Below are positions 1-59,261 of a stretch of 64,000 nucleotides of DNA, one piece after another (position 1 is the stretch's first letter; each line of letters starts with the position of its first letter). The stretch spans positions 2,542,001 through 2,606,000 of the forward strand of contig OX328109.1 of the NCBI GenBank assembly GCA_946811185.2, given 5' to 3'. The stretch is from Hippopus hippopus. Taxonomy: Eukaryota; Mollusca; Bivalvia; Cardiida; Cardiidae. The notes under the pieces are model-generated. The model had not been told where the DNA came from, ran no database searches, and was given only the letters and a program-made list of their open reading frames with translations. The translations under genes and the position numbers were made by a program.

Positions 1-204
<204 letters not shown>

Positions 205-383
205 TAGTTTGATCTTGGTCTACATTTTTGCATATGGTCTTGGAAAGTTGATAATTTCATTTTCATATCCCACATTCCTTCTTTTCTGAAAATATATCTC
301 ATATTCATTTTATAATACTTCTTTTTTGTTCCAAAAAAGTCTGCTATAACTGTTTAACCTTATTGTGTACTACATGTCTATGG

Positions 384-1010
384 TCTTACGAACAAAGTCT
401 GTATCCCCGTGGGGTCCCGGGTTTTTTTAATTTATAGAATAGGACCTCGGCCTTTCTCTATGGCATGTCGTAGAAGGCGACTAAAATTAGAGACAAACGG
501 CTGCTTTCCTCGTAATTCGTAGGATTGCAGCAGGCTGGGTAGTTCTTATTCCAAATCCTGTATTTTTTTCTCGATGTAAATAGGGTTTGGAATGGGAATC
601 AATTGGCCTGTGGGACCCCGTGTGGTTTAATCGGGGGTATAAGAATAAACCACTGCAGTCCCGCGATCGTCACATCTGCCATTTCATCTGGCGGAACAAA
701 AGTGACAGCATGCATGTCGTAAAAGGCGACAAAAGGGGCATCATTTTGTGTTTTGTCCATTCCTCATTTATCATGTTTGTCTTATGTTGTTGCATTTTCA
801 CCTCGCATTATTGTTTACTAAGTAAGTGCGCCCAATATGACCTAAGTTGTCGACGGGCCTTAAAACGCTATTCATCTATTCATCTAACAAAGTCTGTAAC
901 AAAGAAACAAATGAACAAATGCATAGCAGAAATACAGGGACCGGGCAGGATTCGAACCTAGAACGCCCGGACGAAAGGCCAACACCATAACCACTGAGCT
1001 AATGAGAATT
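384..1010 (-). mobile_element. LTR/SINE-like element related to the TRIM at 43.6 kb
   Basis: Read on the minus strand, it begins with a tRNA-like module. The A-box TAGCTCAGTGG is at 1001-991 and the B-box GGTTCGAATCC at 958-948, 33 nt apart as in a real tRNA. Then comes the same ATGCATTTRTTCATTTG...ACTTTGTT tail as the TRIM LTR (886-935). After ~460 bp of other sequence, a second CAGACTTTGTT copy ends in CGTAAGA at 384, the LTR terminus sequence. The intervening part carries two copies of a GTCGTARAAGGCGACWAAA motif (~467 and ~717). It may be a longer, diverged solo LTR or a SINE that shares modules with the TRIM. Confidence 0.55.
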
Positions 1011-1016
1011 CTCCTA

Positions 1017-1095
1017 ACTTTTTGCCACATTTAAATTGTCCACAAATGCTGTCAGTTTGGACAAGTTCAAAATTTTATCATGTGATACAGAATCC
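1017..1095 (-). mobile_element. Family A MITE fragment (L arm)
   Basis: Only the outer part of one arm is left: TTTAAATTGTCCACAAATGC through a TTTTATCATGTGAT end. It abuts the LTR relative, which may have truncated it. Confidence 0.6.
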
Positions 1096-1099
1096 ATTT

Positions 1100-1308
1100 C
1101 CTGATGCATTAAACCAAGCTAGTCATCACATATTTACTGATCCATAAAATCCATTTTGTCTAACAACTAGCCAAATCCTAGGGTAGAATGGTCCTAGAAA
1201 ATTGATCTTTAGCAAAAAGTTTCAACCCAGGTAAGCCTGCAAAAGGCTGACCTCGGTCGATACTTTTTGCAGATGGGGTAACCCATTTTTCACCGAGTAT
1301 GACTCATA
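1100..1308 (+). mobile_element. Family C MITE, diverged copy
   Basis: Contains CTGATGCATTAAACCAAGC, CCATTTTGTCTAACAACTAG and the stem AAAAGTTTCAACCC / GGTCGATACTTTTT seen in other C copies. Its left GAGCCATG end is missing. Confidence 0.65.
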
Positions 1309-1410
1309 ATAAATCAACGATAATGCAGGTCAGTTTAAGTTGATAGTTCAAAAATAATTGTATAACAAGGTAGAATGACCACTTTTCATACAGAAAATAT
1401 CATAAAAGCG

Positions 1411-1478
1411 AAAAGTGTCAACCCTGGTCAGCCTGCACAATTTGTGCAGTCTGACCAGGGTTGACACTTTTCGCAGTT
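1411..1478. repeat. Near-perfect 68-nt palindrome
   Basis: GCGAAAAGTGTCAACCCTGG pairs with CCAGGGTTGACACTTTTCGC around CAGCCTGCACAATTTGTGCA. It resembles the central stem of family C but differs in sequence. Confidence 0.8.
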
Positions 1479-1599
1479 CCCAGATGGTCCCTTTTTGCGT
1501 GACGGGTCACATATCAGTACATTACTTCTTGTTTAGCTGGAAATCATTACATCTGATGTCATTGCAATTGCATTTCAGGCTATTTTGGCCCTTATTTTC

Positions 1600-1974
<375 letters not shown>

Positions 1975-2569
1975 TGAAAACACCTTGATTGGTGGTACTC
2001 TGAAACCGCTGGCTTAATTGGTATGTTGGTTTACTTCAGTCTTTTTCGCATTTTGGATCTTCACTCTGCTTATTTGGTCAAGCCTATAAGATAAAAATCT
2101 TTATCACATTTAAACCTCCTCCAGCAGTGTATTAAACCCATGACTTATTTTCGATGATATACCAGTGTATTATTGTTTTTTAGTTATGGTTAACTTTCAG
2201 TTATAAGCATGTGAAGCAGGCGAAACCAGTACAGCATGTGACAGAACTAGAACTACTTAGCCATTTCCCAAGAAAATGACGTCATACTTGCTAAGATGCG
2301 TGGAAAGTTTTATGGTTTTCATGTTTAATAATAACAAGAAATGCAGAGAATGATATTTAAAACCAATAAATTCTTGAAATCTTTTGATTTACTCCCTCTC
2401 TAAACTGTTTCATTCTACTTTTGATGTAAATATCACAGATCTTTGTATTTACATATTTCAAACTGAACAACATCTGTAAACATGATATCATGAATGCCAT
2501 ATAGGCTTAAGGTGATGATGCAGAATACTTTTTTGTCTGTCATTGGTTTTATGTGATAAATAGAATCTC

Positions 2570-2700
2570 ACATTCATGTTAATGTATTATCATTTTTATC
2601 AAACTCTTTGACTAAAATGTATTTGACACTTGCCAGGGCTTGCATCACACAATATTAGTCAACTGGTTTGATAAAAATGACAATACATAAACATTCATGT
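2570..2700. repeat. 131-bp hairpin element
   Basis: About 35 nt at 2570-2604 (ACATTCATGTTAATGTATTA...) pair with 2666-2700 with only a few mismatches, around a ~60-nt loop. No second copy seen in the window. Confidence 0.7.
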
Positions 2701-2728
2701 AAAACCCTCTATTTCTGAGGATTTCAGA

Positions 2729-2867
2729 ATGTTTTTGAAAAGGTAGAAAACATTGTGGGAAAAGGAGAAAATGCTGGTTACTAGCATTTTCTCCTGTGCC
2801 CACAAGGTTTTAAAAAGCTTTCTTTTTCAGGGTTGTTACTAACTGGGATTGTTTGGTAAAAAGTTAA
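2729..2867 (+). mobile_element. Family A MITE, 5'-truncated
   Basis: Central palindrome and R arm kept (ends GTTTGGTAAAAAGTTAA). The outer L arm is lost. Confidence 0.85.
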
Positions 2868-3026
2868 AAAAGTCAAATTACTGCTTCATGTTATATTTTC
2901 ATTACACTTCCATGATGGTTTTGCTTAAAGCAGTTGCAGCCCATTGTTGACAACAGCGGTGCTCTTGAAATTTTTTTACATGTCTGTGTTGATATTGCAG
3001 ATTATATTGTCCAAAAGTACCCCTAA

Positions 3027-3606
<580 letters not shown>

Positions 3607-10891: not shown

Positions 10892-11328
10892 CTAACCCTT
10901 TGCTACACAATCCTATGTTTTAAGAGCCCTGAGGAAAAAGGCTTTTGAAAATGTTTAGGGAAAAGCATAACCAGTATTTTCTCCTTTATCCCACGTTTTG
11001 TACTCTATCCAAGACAGCCCATCATTTAAGCGATATTTAACCCTTTACCAGATGACAAAATTTTAGCCCTGTCCAAATTGAAAGCATTTGCAGACGACAA
11101 TTTCAGTGTGGCTCAACTGGTGCAATTGTTTATTGACAGGGTAGAAAACATTGTGGGAAAAGGAGAAAATGTTACCAGCATTTTCTCCTTTTCCCACAAT
11201 GTTTTCAAAAGGCTTCTTTCCAAGGGTCGTCAAAAGTTGTCATTGTGTGGCAATGGGTTAACTTGTTGTCTGCAAATGCTGTCATTTTTTAACAGAGTAA
11301 TATATCGTTGTTTGGTAAAAAGTTTTAA
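10892..11328 (-). mobile_element. Family A MITE (outer) carrying a second A copy
   Basis: R arm CTAACCCTTTGCTACACAATCC to CATTTAAGCGATATTTAA, interrupted at the internal TTAA. It resumes after 11261 with TTGTTGTCTGCAAATGCTGT and ends GTTTGGTAAAAAGTTTTAA. Confidence 0.85.
11037..11261 (+). mobile_element. Family A MITE (inner) nested in another A copy
   Basis: TTAA at 11037-11040 and 11258-11261. Complete L and R arms; the central palindrome lacks the GCTGG tip. Confidence 0.93.
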
Positions 11329-12399
11329 AAAAAACTGAATGTTACACCCTTGGAATATCTCACAAAATTACAGTGTAGATCCAAGAGCAGACTGCATTTT
11401 CTTTGCAGCCTGAACTTGTTCTCTAATGTTTACAAAACCACCTGAAGTCTTGTCTAGTAGGCTACAAGTTTATTGTAGCTGCGTATTGGCTTGCCACACA
11501 TTTTTGAAAACTTTTTAATGCTTTCCCTTCATTTATTTTCGTAGACTAAAGTTAGGGTTTTAAAATTTTCACCTACCAAAAGTAAACTAAAACGTATAGA
11601 ACTCTAACTCTACTGTATGTGGTAAGCAATTCTTCATGTTGTTTGGTGATAGTTTGGTTACCCTTTTGGTGATATCCTTTTTGTTTTATATAGAAAAAAA
11701 GCCATTTCCAGAGGAATGTTGAATATCAATAAAACCTTAATTTTCCATACATAAATAGTAGGGAAAAAAAAGCACTCAGAAATTGGTCCTTTTGTGGCAC
11801 AGTTTGTGTTAACCGGATACCTCAGTCTCTGCATGAAGGAAGTGTGCTGACTGACTTCTAGGGTCAGCAGTCATGTGATCTTTGTAGACTGGTTTGCATG
11901 GTTACCCAATCTTTGAAGGGGTGTGAACACAGGACAGACAAAATAAAATTTTGAACCCTTCCATTTTGTTGCATGTCAACAAACAGCAAGGGGGGAAACT
12001 GGACTAAGCTTTCAAATCACAGGCAGAGAAAAGATGTACAGTGGAAACCATACGATGACGTAGCGCCCATTATGCACCATATGCTCTTGTGTAATGTAAA
12101 ATCTTGCCAACAAGTCGATGTTTCCTTCAGTTGCAATTCTCAAGTGATATTTTATGGATTTAATCTTATAAAATTGCCTCAGATGCAAAGCTCTCCAGAT
12201 TTGTAAATTCTCATGTTTTGTAAATATAGTCTGTGTCAATGAAGTCACTATCGATTTCGGTGCTTGTACTTGCCTTTGGCATGCATAATACTTAAAAATT
12301 TTTGGCTATGCCCCTGCTATACACAGTGGAAACCATTCCTGCTGGTTGGCTGTTAGGCAGATAGTGACTATCATAATTATTAAATATAGAAAAGATAAT

Positions 12400-13469: not shown

Positions 13470-13735
13470 TGACAACAGGAGGTCCAGGGTTCGATCCCCG
13501 GCTCGACCAAGTTCTTTCCTTGGATTGATGACAGTCATTGGGACAGGATTCATTCCTCTCCCACAGCTGCCATTGTTTCGACAATGGATAAGTTGGAAAG
13601 CAGCCAGTGGCTTGGAAAAAATATTGTGCGGAGTACTGGTAACAGAAACTCCAGGAAATTATTCACTGGCCGCCACAATATAATTGAAATAATGTTGAAA
13701 CCAGCATTAAACACCAAACAATCTATCAATGGATA
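13470..13735 (+). mobile_element. tRNA-derived SINE, 5'-truncated
   Basis: B-box GGTTCGATCCCC, then the same body as the SINE at 3278: GATTGATGACAGTCATTGGG, AAAGCAGCCAGTGGCTTGGA, AATAATGTTGAAACCAGCAT. The A-box is missing. Confidence 0.82.
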
Positions 13736-16131: not shown

Positions 16132-16296
16132 TAATATTCATCCGCCATTCATAAAAACAAAGTTAATACCAACTATTTATGGTACTTCATGGCGGTAGGT
16201 CTTTATAATAATTATATATAAGAAGTTTTGTGATGTAAATATTGACAACTTTACAGCTGTCACAAGTCAGAGACATGAAATACTGTACTATTAAGT

Positions 16297-16525
16297 TTAA
16301 CCCTTTACCAAACGACAAAATTTTAGCCTCTATCAAATTGAAAGCATGTGCAGACGACAATTCAAATGTGGCTCAAATGATGAAATTTGTCTTTGATAGG
16401 GTGGAAAACATTGTAAGAAAAAGAGAAAATGCTGGTAACCAGCATTTTCTCCTTTTCCCACAATGTTTTCAAAAGCCTCTTTGCTCAGGGTCGTTAATAT
16501 TCGGGATTAAAGGTTTAATGGTTAA
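16297..16525 (+). mobile_element. Family A MITE, full length
   Basis: TTAA at both ends; right end altered to GTTTAATGGTTAA. Confidence 0.93.
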
Positions 16526-16721
16526 AATTTCTAATTACTTGTTCATTGACAGTGTTGGCCATAATTTTGTGGAGGAAATTTTTTTTTACTTTCCTTCAAA
16601 TGTAGATCTATAGAAAAGAAGAAAATTCTGGTGATCACCATTTTCTCTATTTCAAGGACATTTTTAACATTTGATTAGCATTTTGATCTTTCATCTTCAT
16701 TGCTTTCAATGATATGGAGCC

Positions 16722-30231: not shown

Positions 30232-30524
30232 ATTTAACGCTTTAGTTTTGAATATATAGACATTTGATATGCTGTCTGTGAAAGAATGCTTATTATTTCA
30301 TGCTTTCCGGTAGGTTATCGAGAAATACCAGTGAAATATTTTTTAAAGTCTTTTTGTCTGTTGGTAGTTATTCTTTAAAAGCTAATTAATTTTACAAAGC
30401 AGTTAGAGAGACATCATTATTACTTGAGCAATGACAATTGATTTACATTGTTCAATATTAAACTAGGAGATTGAAACCAACATACATCCACACACCCTGA
30501 AAACTGAAAATTAACAGTGATATG

Positions 30525-32250
30525 CCCTTAGGGTTTGGTTTCTGCATGCATCTAGTTTTTGGTTTCTAAGTGTACCTAGATTTGGGTTTCAAAAGTCCTT
30601 AGCTTTGGTTTCTACATGTGCCTAAATTTTGGTTTCTACATGTCCCTAGGTTTTGGTTTCTAAACATACCTAGGTTTTAGTTTCTAAATATCCCTAGGTT
30701 TGGGTTTCTAAATGTCCTTAGGCTTTGGTTTCTAAAAGTCCCTAGGTTTCGGTTTCTAAATGTTCTTGGATTATGGTTTCTAAATGTTCATAGGTTTTGG
30801 TTTCTAAAAGTCCATAGCTTTTGGTTTCTAAATGTCCTAAGGTTTTGGTTCTACATGTCCTTGGATTATGGTTTCTAAATGTCCATAAGTTTTGGTTCTA
30901 CATGTCCATAAGTTTTGGTTTCTAAATGGCCATAGGTTTTGGTTTCTAAATGTCCTAAGGTTTTGGTTTCTATATGTCATTGGATTATAGTTTCTAAATG
31001 TCCTTGGTTTATGGTTTCTAAATGTCCATAGGTTTTGGTTTCTATATGTCCCTGGATTATGGTTTCTAAATATCCTTAGGTTTTGGTTCTAAATGTCCTT
31101 AGGTTTTGCTTTCTAAATATTCTTGGTTTATGGTTTCTAAATGTCCATAGGTTTTTGTTTCTATATGTCCATAGGTTTTGCTTCTAAATGTCCTTGGATA
31201 ATGGTTTTCTAAATGTTCAAAGGTTTTTGTTTCTAAATGTCCTTGGATTATGGTTTCAAAATGTCCTAAGGTTTTGGTTTCTAAATGTCCTTAGGTTTTG
31301 GTTCTAAATGTCCTTGGACAATGGTTTCTAAATGTTCAAAGGTTTTTGTTTCTAAATGTCCTTGGATTATGGTGTCTAAATGTCCTAAGGTTTTGGTTTC
31401 TAAATGTCCTTAGGTTTTGGTTCTAAATGTCTTAAGGTTTTGGTTTCTAAATATCTTTGGTTTATGGTTTCTAAATGCCCATAGGTTTTGCTTTCTATAT
31501 GTCCATAGGTTTTGCTTCTAAATGTCCTTGGATTATGGTTTCTAAATGTTCACAAGTTTTGGTTTCTAAAAGGCCTTGGATTATGGTATCTTAATGTCCA
31601 TAGGTTTTGGTTTCTATATGTCCTTGGATTATGGTTTCTAGATGTCCATAGGTTTTGGTTTCTAAATGGCCTTGGATTATGGTATCTTAATGTCCATAGG
31701 TTTTGGTTTCTATATGTCCTTGGATTATGATTTCTAAATGTCCTTGGATTATGGTTTCTAGATGTCCATAGGTTTTGGTTTCTAAATGGCCTTGGATTAT
31801 GGTATCTTAATGTCAATAGGTTTTGGTTTCTATATGTCCTTGGATTATGGTTTCTGTATGTCCTTGGATTATGGTTTCTAAATGTCCATAGGTTTTGGTT
31901 TCTATATGTCAATAAGTTTTGGTTTCTAATTGGCCATAGGGTTTGGTTTCTATATGTCATTGGATTATGGTTTCTAATTGTCCTTGGATTATGGTTTCTA
32001 AATGTCCACAGGTTTTGGTTTCTATATGTCCATAAATTTTGGTTTCTAAATGTTCTTTAGTTTTGGTTTCTGTATGTCCTTGTACTATGGTTTCAAAATG
32101 TTCATAGGTTTTGGTTTCTAAATGACCTTGGTTTCTTAATGTCCATAGGTTTTGGTTTCTTAATGTCCATTGGTTTTGGTTTTTACATGTTGTCTGGTTA
32201 AGGTTTCTACATGTTGTTAGTTTTTTATTTCTTCATGTTATTAAGTTCAC
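30525..32250. repeat. 24-bp minisatellite, about 70 units
   Basis: Units alternate between GGTTTTGGTTTCTAAATGTCCATA-like and GGATTATGGTTTCTAAATGTCCTT-like forms (first 20 bases GGTTTTGGTTTCTAAATGTC). Between 31571 and 31860 a higher-order period of 96-120 bp (4-5 units) is visible. Because 24 is divisible by three, long open frames run through it (e.g. minus strand 31550-31960). They are repeats of an octapeptide, not a gene. Confidence 0.95.
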
Positions 32251-43375: not shown

Positions 43376-43567
43376 CTATCAGCTGTATTGTGATCTTACC
43401 ATAGACCAACCGTCTTTTGCCATTCTGTATGAAGAAGCTTTTCATTGTACAGGTACTTTTAGCCAGACTGTCGTAAGTCTATCCACTTAACCATCTTTTG
43501 TGATTCTTATGAACACAAACCTTTTCATTGTACATATGTACTGTTTGCTGCCCTGCCTGAAGTGTTT

Positions 43568-43788
43568 TGTTACGGGAGACCACTCCTTCATGCATGGCTT
43601 CGTCCCGATTTAAATACAATACCTAACAACTGCGTTAGAGAGATATCTCTTTAGCTCAGTGGTTATGAGGTTTTAAACCTCGAAAAACGAGGTTATTTGT
43701 CCGCCATGGGTTCGAATCCCGCCGGATGAGGTTTGTAGTGCCATGCATTTATTCATTTGTTTCTTTGTTACGGACTTTGTTCGTAAGA
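43568..43788 (+). repeat. TRIM 5' LTR with tRNA-like module
   Basis: A-box TAGCTCAGTGG at 43652-43662 and B-box GGTTCGAATCC at 43709-43719 both match RNA polymerase III internal-promoter consensus. Between them, GAGGTTTTAAACCTC forms a hairpin like an anticodon stem. No TTTT terminator follows within the LTR, so a Pol III transcript would run on into the interior. Confidence 0.9.
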
Positions 43789-43806
43789 TGGGGGCTCGTC
43801 CGGGAT
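43789..43806 (+). promoter_or_regulatory. tRNA-Pro primer-binding site
   Basis: TGGGGGCTCGTCCGGGAT, directly abutting the LTR, identical to the classic tRNA-Pro PBS of LTR retroelements. Confidence 0.93.
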
Positions 43807-43915
43807 TGGCCATTGAGCCATTAATCCCATTTGTTGTCCAAAAACGGACATTTGTTGTCTAAATAATAGACTTACTGCCTAATAAGGCTTTGAGTCATCA
43901 ATAAATGATGACTTT

Positions 43916-43924
43916 AAGAGGGGG
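43916..43924 (+). promoter_or_regulatory. Polypurine tract of the TRIM
   Basis: AAGAGGGGG followed by TG and the 3' LTR; the expected plus-strand priming site. Confidence 0.85.
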
Positions 43925-43926
43925 TG

Positions 43927-44147
43927 TGTTACGGGAGACCACTCCTTCATGCATGGCTTCGTCCCAATTTAAATACAATACTTAACAACTGCGTTAGAGA
44001 GATATCTCTTTAGCTCAGTGGTTATGAGGTTTTAAACCTCGAAAAACGAGGTTATTTGTCCGCCATGGGTTCGAATCCCGCCAGATGCGGTTTGTAGTGC
44101 CATGCATTTATTCATTTGTTTCTTTGTTACGGACTTTGTTCGTAAGA
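43927..44147 (+). repeat. TRIM 3' LTR with tRNA-like module
   Basis: Same layout as the 5' copy, with A-box at 44011-44021 and B-box at 44068-44078. Differences: G/A in CCC(G/A)ATTTAAA, C/T in ATAC(C/T)TAAC, and two in GCC(G/A)GATG(A/C)GG. Confidence 0.9.
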
Positions 44148-44400
44148 CTTTCCACTAAAACTTCTCGTGCAGTCTTTACAAACAGGAACCTTTTTGTTGT
44201 ACTGTTTGCTGCACTGTCTTAAGTCTATCCACTAAAACATCTTTTGCCATTCTTAAGAACAGGAACCTTTTCATTCTGCTTTAAGCCACATTGCCTTAAG
44301 TCTATCCACTAAATCATCTTGTGCCATTCTTTATGAACAGGTACTTTTTCATTGTACTGTCTGCTGCTCTGTCCTCAGTCTATCCACTGTCGTTCAAGTT

Positions 44401-49360: not shown

Positions 49361-49589
49361 TTGAACTTTTACCAAACAATCTCATGTTTTAATGACTTTG
49401 AGGAGTAAGGCTTTTGAAAACTTTGTGGGAAAAGGAGAAAATGCTGGTAACCAGCATTTTCTCCTTTTCCCACAAAGTTTTCTACCCTTCCAATGACAAA
49501 TTTCATCATTTGAACCGCTTTCATTTTGTCGTCTGCAAATGCTTTGAATTTGGACAAGTCTAAATTTTTGTCGTTTGGTAAAGGGTTAA
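49361..49589 (-). mobile_element. Family A MITE, full length
   Basis: TTGAACTTTTACCAAACAATC to GTTTGGTAAAGGGTTAA; very regular core. Confidence 0.93.
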
Positions 49590-49762
49590 AACAAATTTAT
49601 GAACAATTTTGGAATCTGATAGAATTTTAATTATCAGGTCTTAACTGTGAGACTTGAGTCAGGATTTTAATCATCAAGTCTTAAGCCTGAGACTTGAGTC
49701 AAGAAACTCGTAAGTGTAGCGAGGATGCCCTTGAAATAAGCTGAAAATAAGAACCTATGATA

Positions 49763-57525: not shown

Positions 57526-58360
57526 CAAAGAAGCCAGCTTCTGAAAATGTTGTAGGAAATGGAGAGAATGCTGATACCAGCATATTCTCGCTCTTCTACA
57601 ATCCTTTCCAAGATATTTTCAATCATTTATCATGCCAAACCAATTTTTTTGTCTGCAAATCTTTTCAATATGGATAATGATAGCAAGAAAACAAGACAGA
57701 CTCTGTATGATTTGAGGCATACAAGCCATTGTCATATCTGGTCACACACAACTCTTGAAATTATCTCCCTTTGAAAATTTACAAAATTTCATCTTTTGCA
57801 AATTTTATGATTTCTTTTAATTTCCTTTTACTTGGACATCACTCACCAGAAGTAGAAGTTTCTTTTCCTACAAAGAAATTGTTGCAAAGTAGCTTCTAAA
57901 TAAAACCTTGCAAATTTGGAGTTATCTCCCTTAAAACTGGTCCAGCAGTCATGTCAGTAGGTAGTGGAATCTTTTGTCCTTGTAATACCCTGTACATAGA
58001 GCACTGCACAGTAAAGACACAGTTAATGAAAGATAATTAAATTAGTTATTGATGAGTGCAATCTTTATGCATAATAGCTGAAGAAATCATCATGGCAAAT
58101 GGAGAAAATAATCTACCAGAGGTTCCCAAGCACGTCTTTTGAAAGATGCTACAAAATATTGTTTCAAGCCAAGAGTTAAATAACAATTTCTTAACAATTT
58201 CTCTGTCTGTCTCTCTATCTGTCTGTCACTCTGTCTGCCTGTCTGTCTGTCCATCAGTCCATCCATCCCTTTGTCTCTGTCTGTCTGTCTGTGCCTCTCT
58301 TGCTCTCTCTCTCTCTCTCTCTCTTGCTCTCACACTCTTACACAGAGGCCAGCTTCTGAA

Positions 58361-58678
58361 AATGTTGTGGAAAATGGAGAGAATGCTGATACCAGCATAT
58401 TCTCCATCTTCTACCATGTTTTCAATCCTTCCAAGATATCTTCAGTCATTTATGGCAAACCAAATTTATTGTCTGCAAATCTTTTCAATATACAAGTAGA
58501 TAATGAGGGCAAGAAAACAAATGTTGTGGAAAATGGAGAGAATGCTGATACCAGCATATTCTCCATCTTCTACCATGTTTTCAATCCTTCCAAGATATCT
58601 TCAGTCATTTATGGCAAACCAAATTTATTGTCTGCAAATCTTTTCAATATACAAGTAGATAATGAGGGCAAGAAAACA
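58361..58678. repeat. Exact 159-bp tandem duplication in array unit 3
   Basis: 58361-58519 and 58520-58678 look identical by eye, each starting AATGTTGTGGAAAATGGAGA. Absent from the other units. Confidence 0.9.
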
Positions 58679-59261
58679 AGACAGACTCTGTATGATTTGA
58701 GGCATACAACATATTGTCATATCTGGTCACACACAACTCTTGAAATTATCTCCCTTTGAAAATTTACAAAATTTTATTTTTTGCAAATTTTATGATTTCT
58801 TTTAATTTCCTTTTACTTGGACGTCACTCACCAGAAGTAGAAGCTTCTTTTCCTACAAAGAAATTGTTGCAAAGTAGCTTCTAAATAAAACCTTGCAAAT
58901 TTGGAGTTATCTCCCTTAAAACTGGTCCAGCAGTCATGTCAGTAGGTAGTTGAACCTTTTGTCCTTGTAATACCCTGTACATAGAGCATTGCACAGTAAA
59001 GACACAGTTTATGAGAGATAAAAGGAAGACGTATTGATGATGGCAATCTTGATGGGAAGAGACTCAAGAAATCATCATGACAAATGGAGAAAATAATCTA
59101 CCAGAGATTTCCAAATACCTCTTTTGGAAGAGGCTACAAAATATTTTTTCAAGACAAAAGTTAAACAACTTCCTGAGTCTCTCTCTCTCTCTCATTTTCA
59201 TTCTCTAACTAAAAGAAGACAGTTTCTGAAAACATTGAGGGAAATCTTAACCTCTCTCTCT

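Follow-up and report, generated by a model that had tools for sequence, protein, structure and literature searches.

A complete miniature LTR retrotransposon with tRNA-like A- and B-boxes in both LTRs, probably a member of Helenus, in the genome of Hippopus hippopus

A complete TRIM with a tRNA-like module in each LTR

Positions 43568-44147 of the window, by which we mean the whole stretch of 64,000 nt that was analysed, hold a complete TRIM of 580 bp. Judged from its sequence, we take this element, with a probability of about 0.9, to be a complete and fairly young member of Helenus, that is, a non-autonomous miniature LTR retrotransposon with a tRNA-derived internal Pol III promoter in its LTR. 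Pol III probably transcribes it, and a Gypsy element probably provides the machinery for its movement.

The hallmarks of a TRIM listed in the first-pass annotation (paired 221-bp LTRs, a tRNA-Pro primer-binding site, a polypurine tract and a 138-bp interior) were all confirmed from the sequence (Table 1). Four differences over 221 positions separate the two LTRs (98.2% identity), none of which falls inside the A-box or the B-box, and the repeat finder reported the same pair as 230 nt at 97%. The usual final dinucleotide of an LTR is CA; here it is GA, because the LTR ends form an imperfect inverted repeat, TGTTACG...CGTAAGA. The primer-binding site starts directly at the end of the 5' LTR, and the PBS-Pro word had this single match in the window with up to 3 mismatches allowed and 0 matches in 100 shuffles. 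An identical word is contained in the MLV PBS-Pro probe given in PMC4587795; this was the only sequence word with literature matches, as the other words searched gave none. At the opposite end of the interior, the purine tract AAGAGGGGGTG abuts the 3' LTR. No stop-to-stop frame of at least 70 aa overlaps 43568-44147. Exact-pattern scans of viral contigs and prokaryote genome contigs returned 0 matches, which is expected because the element belongs to an animal.

Table 1 Features of the element and of its second family member in the window
Feature	Position	Strand	Remarks
TSD, left copy GTTT	43564..43567	+	joined flanks align ungapped to neighbouring ~77-bp units
5' LTR	43568..43788	+	221 bp, TGTTACG...CGTAAGA; 217/221 identical to 3' LTR
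TATA-like TTTAAATA, 5' LTR	43609..43616	+	LTR position 42
Imperfect palindrome	43624..43665	+	42 nt, 81% self-complementary; A-box region preceded by its own inverted copy
A-box TAGCTCAGTGG, 5' LTR	43652..43662	+	LTR position 85; surrounding 17-nt block identical in second family member
TTTT run, possible Pol III stop	43671..43674	+	between A- and B-box; no other T4 run in LTR plus interior
B-box GGTTCGAATCC, 5' LTR	43709..43719	+	LTR position 142; perfect
Primer-binding site (PBS), tRNA-Pro	43789..43806	+	18/18 match to the PBS-Pro word
Interior, non-coding	43789..43926	+	138 bp, between the two LTRs
Polypurine tract AAGAGGGGGTG	43916..43926	+	identified by reading, without statistical test; T is its one pyrimidine
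3' LTR	43927..44147	+	221 bp; from pairwise LTR comparison
A-box TAGCTCAGTGG, 3' LTR	44011..44021	+	LTR position 85
B-box GGTTCGAATCC, 3' LTR	44068..44078	+	LTR position 142
TSD, right copy CTTT	44148..44151	+	one of four bases differs from left copy
Diverged LTR of second family member, apparently solo	384 to ~1040	-	A-box, B-box and same 3' end; found by LTR search of the window
Insert in second LTR	404-885	-	482 bp; flanked by 13-bp duplication TACAGACTTTGTT

Insertion site and age

The element is surrounded by host repeat units of ~77 bp. When the element and one copy of the target site duplication (TSD) were removed, the joined flanks restored a ~77-bp unit with no gap at the junction, the comparison being with paralogous units and not with an empty allele. 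Against one neighbouring stretch the joined flanks were identical at 69/93 positions and ungapped throughout; another stretch aligned with gaps, though not at the junction. A 4-bp TSD with 3/4 bases identical fits an animal Helenus, the one mismatch being a point against this reading. The LTR divergence is 1.8%, which suggests a fairly young insertion.

The tRNA-like module

An A-box followed by a B-box occurred three times in the window (43652, 44011 and 1001 on the minus strand), each time in this family, and in 0 of 100 simulated windows. The A-box alone was non-significant, since the loose form TRGYNNARNNG matched 67 times in the window (38 on the plus strand and 29 on the minus strand). 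The B-box was rarer: five matches were found in the window with at most one mismatch against 1.07 expected, and the three perfect ones all belong to this family. The description of the module as perfect A- and B-boxes with tRNA spacing stood in part, as both boxes are present in both LTRs and the B-box is perfect. Both A-boxes, however, miss the stricter form TRGCNNAGYNGG by the last base, and the A-to-B distance is 57 nt, compared with roughly 44 nt in an ordinary tRNA. The distance in the second family member is 43 nt.

A functional tRNA gene was ruled out. ARAGORN called no tRNA at default and gave weak, mutually inconsistent calls at relaxed settings. Rfam gave no tRNA match at the gathering score; at E up to 10 there was no tRNA among the matches listed, from which two lower-scoring matches of the same clan were omitted. 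At the B-box the list had two weak matches to the T-arm of tmRNA (9.7 and 6 bits versus 47). Folds of the module consisted of separate hairpins with no cloverleaf, and folding of the module alone was not clearly above chance (z of -1.68 and -1.15 for the two LTR copies and -0.11 for the second member).

The palindrome of the 5' LTR, which overlaps the A-box start, has its counterpart in the 3' LTR at 43983-44024. A 122-nt RNA piece holding the first palindrome was predicted to form a hairpin with z of -3.95, and 0/200 shuffles were as good. Rfam matches to mir-9424 on the palindrome (23.8 and 23.3 bits versus a gathering score of 90) were taken as chance. At the corresponding place the second family member has a different yet also palindromic stretch, GAGAATTCTC.

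A diverged second family member

A second LTR of the family lies near the start of the window, and its similarity to the element stops at the same base as the 3' end of the element's LTR. In an alignment to the 5' LTR that left out the 482-bp insert, with segment bounds drawn post hoc from the alignment and position 84 counted twice, four blocks were kept: the TATA-like block (8/8), the A-box block (17/17), the B-box (11/11) and the 3' end (44/46), in total 80/82. The remaining segments matched at 17/40, 12/36, 12/41 and 10/23 positions, in total 51/140, with 32 gap positions among them; the match of the first 40 LTR positions is uncertain because the 5' end and the TSD of the second member are not fixed. 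In the second member, the linker that separates the A-box from the B-box is shorter than that of the 5' LTR by 14 nt.

From this pattern, the boxes appear to be of old origin and to have been kept, the two family members giving a footprint rather than a family alignment. A strongly diverged LTR carries the same module at the same LTR place, and thus the capture of the module would be old and common to at least these two. The 482-bp insert itself holds two similar stretches GTCGCCTTYTACGACATGC and looks like a LINE/SINE-type insertion.

Signals for Pol III and Pol II

The LTR plus interior holds one T4 run, where shuffled sequence had 4.0 on average (P of 0.025 for 1 or fewer), and in a milder control 4.9% of the same-length window stretches had equally few. 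A4 runs were not depleted over the same length (2 versus 1.6). Between 43680 and 44030, a span that covers the interior and reaches the corresponding place of the 3' LTR, there is no T4 run. Neither AATAAA nor ATTAAA is present in the LTR, a weak observation as few are expected, and the interior has one AATAAA. Taken with the boxes, we consider it likely that the LTR is used by Pol III.

Other features of the LTR bear on this reading from the other side. The TTTT between the A- and B-box, which is present in both LTRs, could stop Pol III ~30 nt after its start; the module of the second member lacks such a run. The A-to-B distance, longer than that of an ordinary tRNA, and the fold of the module alone, not clearly above chance, are further points against it. 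The TATA-like block could be used by Pol II as well. At LTR positions 41-48 this block (ATTTAAAT) is identical in the second member at 8/8 positions, and the next base differs there.

If Pol III does transcribe the element, the start would lie near LTR position 70-78 (~43637-43645), ~10 nt upstream of the A-box of the 5' LTR. The polymerase would pass through the interior, which is free of T4 runs, and would stop within or just beyond the 3' LTR, which would leave the RNA with redundant ends. Minus-strand synthesis would then be primed at 43789 by the host tRNA-Pro and the plus strand by the purine tract. Reverse transcriptase and integrase would presumably come from an autonomous Gypsy-type partner whose primer-binding site is likewise for tRNA-Pro, and the integrase would insert the copy with a 4-bp duplication.

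A more specific version of this scheme, which we consider quite improbable, treats the TTTT as a Pol III stop that leaks: the polymerase would pass it in the 5' LTR and end at it in the 3' LTR. The RNA would then have a terminal redundancy of ~30-40 nt (R from LTR position ~70 to 107), and the palindrome over the start of the A-box would help to choose between read-through and stop. In outcome this would resemble the 18-bp redundancy of Cassandra (introduction of PMC10886601) and, if true, would be a Pol III counterpart of the retroviral R region. The lack of a T4 run at this place in the second member stands against it.

Relation to Helenus

Helenus (TRIMp3) comprises TRIMs with a tRNA-like sequence in their LTRs and is known from fungi, six animal phyla and one plant (Kojima 2024, PMC10886601). 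In bivalves, 51 families were described, all from five orders of Pteriomorphia, with tRNA-Lys, His, Ile, Pro, Glu or Ser as primers (PMC10886601); a host among the heterodonts would extend that range. Helenus elements are 311-1263 bp long and non-coding, with a box A with TRGCY and YGG and a box B with GGTTC in the LTR, a primer-binding site that pairs with the 3' end of a tRNA and a polypurine tract; the TSD of the animal families is 4 bp (PMC10886601). The present element agrees with this description: it is 580 bp long with 221-bp LTRs at 98.2% identity and no frame of at least 70 aa, has TAGCTCAGTGG and GGTTCGAATCC in both LTRs, carries the tRNA-Pro word at 18/18 directly after the 5' LTR, shows by reading the polypurine tract AAGAGGGGGTG at 43916-43926, and is flanked by GTTT/CTTT (3/4 identical) with an ungapped junction against paralogous units. 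The absence of a recognizable tRNA also fits the report that Helenus modules, for the most part, do not encode functional tRNAs (PMC10886601). No difference in kind from Helenus was found in this comparison of described features. The palindrome upstream of the A-box and the T4 run in the module are absent from the main text on Helenus in PMC10886601.

The first-pass annotation was right about the anatomy, a TRIM in which both LTRs have a tRNA-like Pol III module with an A-box and a B-box. It had also proposed that the element would be an independent case of a Pol III-driven LTR element, with the plant Cassandra elements as the only known comparable design. This claim of novelty fails because Kojima (2024, PMC10886601) already described the design, bivalves with 51 families included, and published both Helenus, with tRNA-like LTRs, and Ajax, a 5S-based lineage of nemerteans. 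Among openly licensed PMC papers we found no publication on Helenus beyond Kojima 2024. The element would thus be a new member of Helenus, or possibly belongs to a family already among the published consensus sequences, and it opens no new class.

The likely helper of Helenus is Gypsy, and Gypsy-13_CGi uses tRNA-Pro (PMC10886601). Cassandra is the only validated TRIMp3 lineage so far, Pol III transcription of Helenus being unvalidated (PMC10886601). A complete copy with a tRNA-Pro site, together with an older relative in which blocks of the LTR have been kept, offers a test case for Pol III drive in Helenus and for the Gypsy partner. Pol III-promoted LTR elements of the TRIMp3 kind would represent a convergent solution, one that they share with SINEs.

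Three other lineages were compared with the element. Like Cassandra of plants, it is a TRIM whose LTRs each carry a Pol III promoter derived from a small RNA (PMC10886601), but Cassandra carries 5S rRNA in its LTR and the present element has tRNA-like boxes. Rfam gave no 5S match in the element, either at the gathering score or among the matches listed at E up to 10, and membership in the 5S-based Cassandra was ruled out accordingly. Ajax of nemerteans is likewise an animal TRIM in whose LTR a Pol III promoter is presumed, but differs in its 5S-derived promoter, its 5-bp TSD and its tRNA-Leu primer (PMC10886601). The third, biv-TRIM (Satovic et al. 2019, PMC6934838), is a bivalve TRIM whose LTRs of 202-218 bp are similar in length; in contrast, its interior is given as 77-80 bp without a clear primer-binding site, compared with 138 bp here. 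The terms 'Pol III', 'polymerase III' and 'box' do not occur in the main text of PMC6934838. The published biv-TRIM TDR primers F and R and its inner motif TGATCCCAAAGGAC matched the element with 9, 7 and 6 mismatches at best, compared with shuffled means of 8.2, 8.6 and 4.8 and minima of 5, 6 and 2; this is a limited test, because the divergence among TDR copies reaches 50% (PMC6934838). With an interior of 138 bp and with primer and motif matches within the shuffled range, the element appears to be different from biv-TRIM.

Alternative explanations

One alternative concerns the promoter and not the membership in Helenus. The element could be a conventional TRIM with the TATA-like block as its Pol II promoter, in which the tRNA-like part persists as a passive trace of a SINE that long ago inserted into the LTR. 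The conservation of ATTTAAAT in the second member and the T4 run within the module both speak for this account. Yet the A- and B-boxes are unchanged across two LTR types in which the linker and the upstream parts retain only 12/41, 12/36 and 17/40 identical positions, which a passive remnant would not predict, and the lack of a polyadenylation hexamer in the LTR counts weakly in the same direction. We therefore regard transcription by Pol II with a passive module as unlikely, and Pol III use of the LTR remains the preferred reading.

Two further alternatives concern the origin of the element. A SINE might have inserted by chance into a single ancestral TRIM copy, the rest of the family being without the tRNA-like part, and it was this trapped SINE that the first-pass annotation had named as the case against its reading. 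Kojima proposes SINE capture as the general origin of Helenus (PMC10886601), which lends the idea some plausibility, but the far-diverged second LTR, although one other copy only, has the same module with the same boxes at the same LTR place. The capture would accordingly be shared by at least these two, and its restriction to one copy is very improbable. That there is no retrotransposon at all, and that a 359-bp unit holding a tRNA pseudogene was duplicated locally in tandem, is hardly credible: although there are only two direct copies and the region is rich in tandem repeats, such a duplication does not account for an 18/18 primer-binding site exactly at the LTR end with a purine tract at the opposite end, for an ungapped empty site with a 4-bp duplication in the host repeat, or for a family LTR elsewhere in the window whose similarity stops at the same base.

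Other features of the window

Exons of a SERCA-type calcium pump lie at 1-3278 on the plus strand; 1636-1977 and 3027-3278 match Pfam, 3027-3278 also matches SERCA in the PDB, and, by eye only, another likely exon was recognized at the start of the window. A dispersed repeat occurs at many places and on both strands, for example at 11030-11338 (+), 16239-16613 (+) and 49369-49596 (-), with frames like NPLPNDKILALSKLKAFADDN...VENIVGKGENAGNQHFLLFPQCFQK. Two of these frames were tested and gave no Pfam match, and the repeat is probably a non-coding mobile element. A tRNA-like B-box with one mismatch (GGTTCGATCCC) is found at 13488-13498 (+) within GGTCCAGGGTTCGATCCCCGGCTCGACCAAG, possibly as part of a tRNA-derived SINE. 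A minisatellite of ~72 copies of a 24-bp unit occupies 30522-32232. At 58360-58679, a 159-bp unit is present in two tandem copies at 100% identity, the duplication being either very recent or an artefact of assembly.
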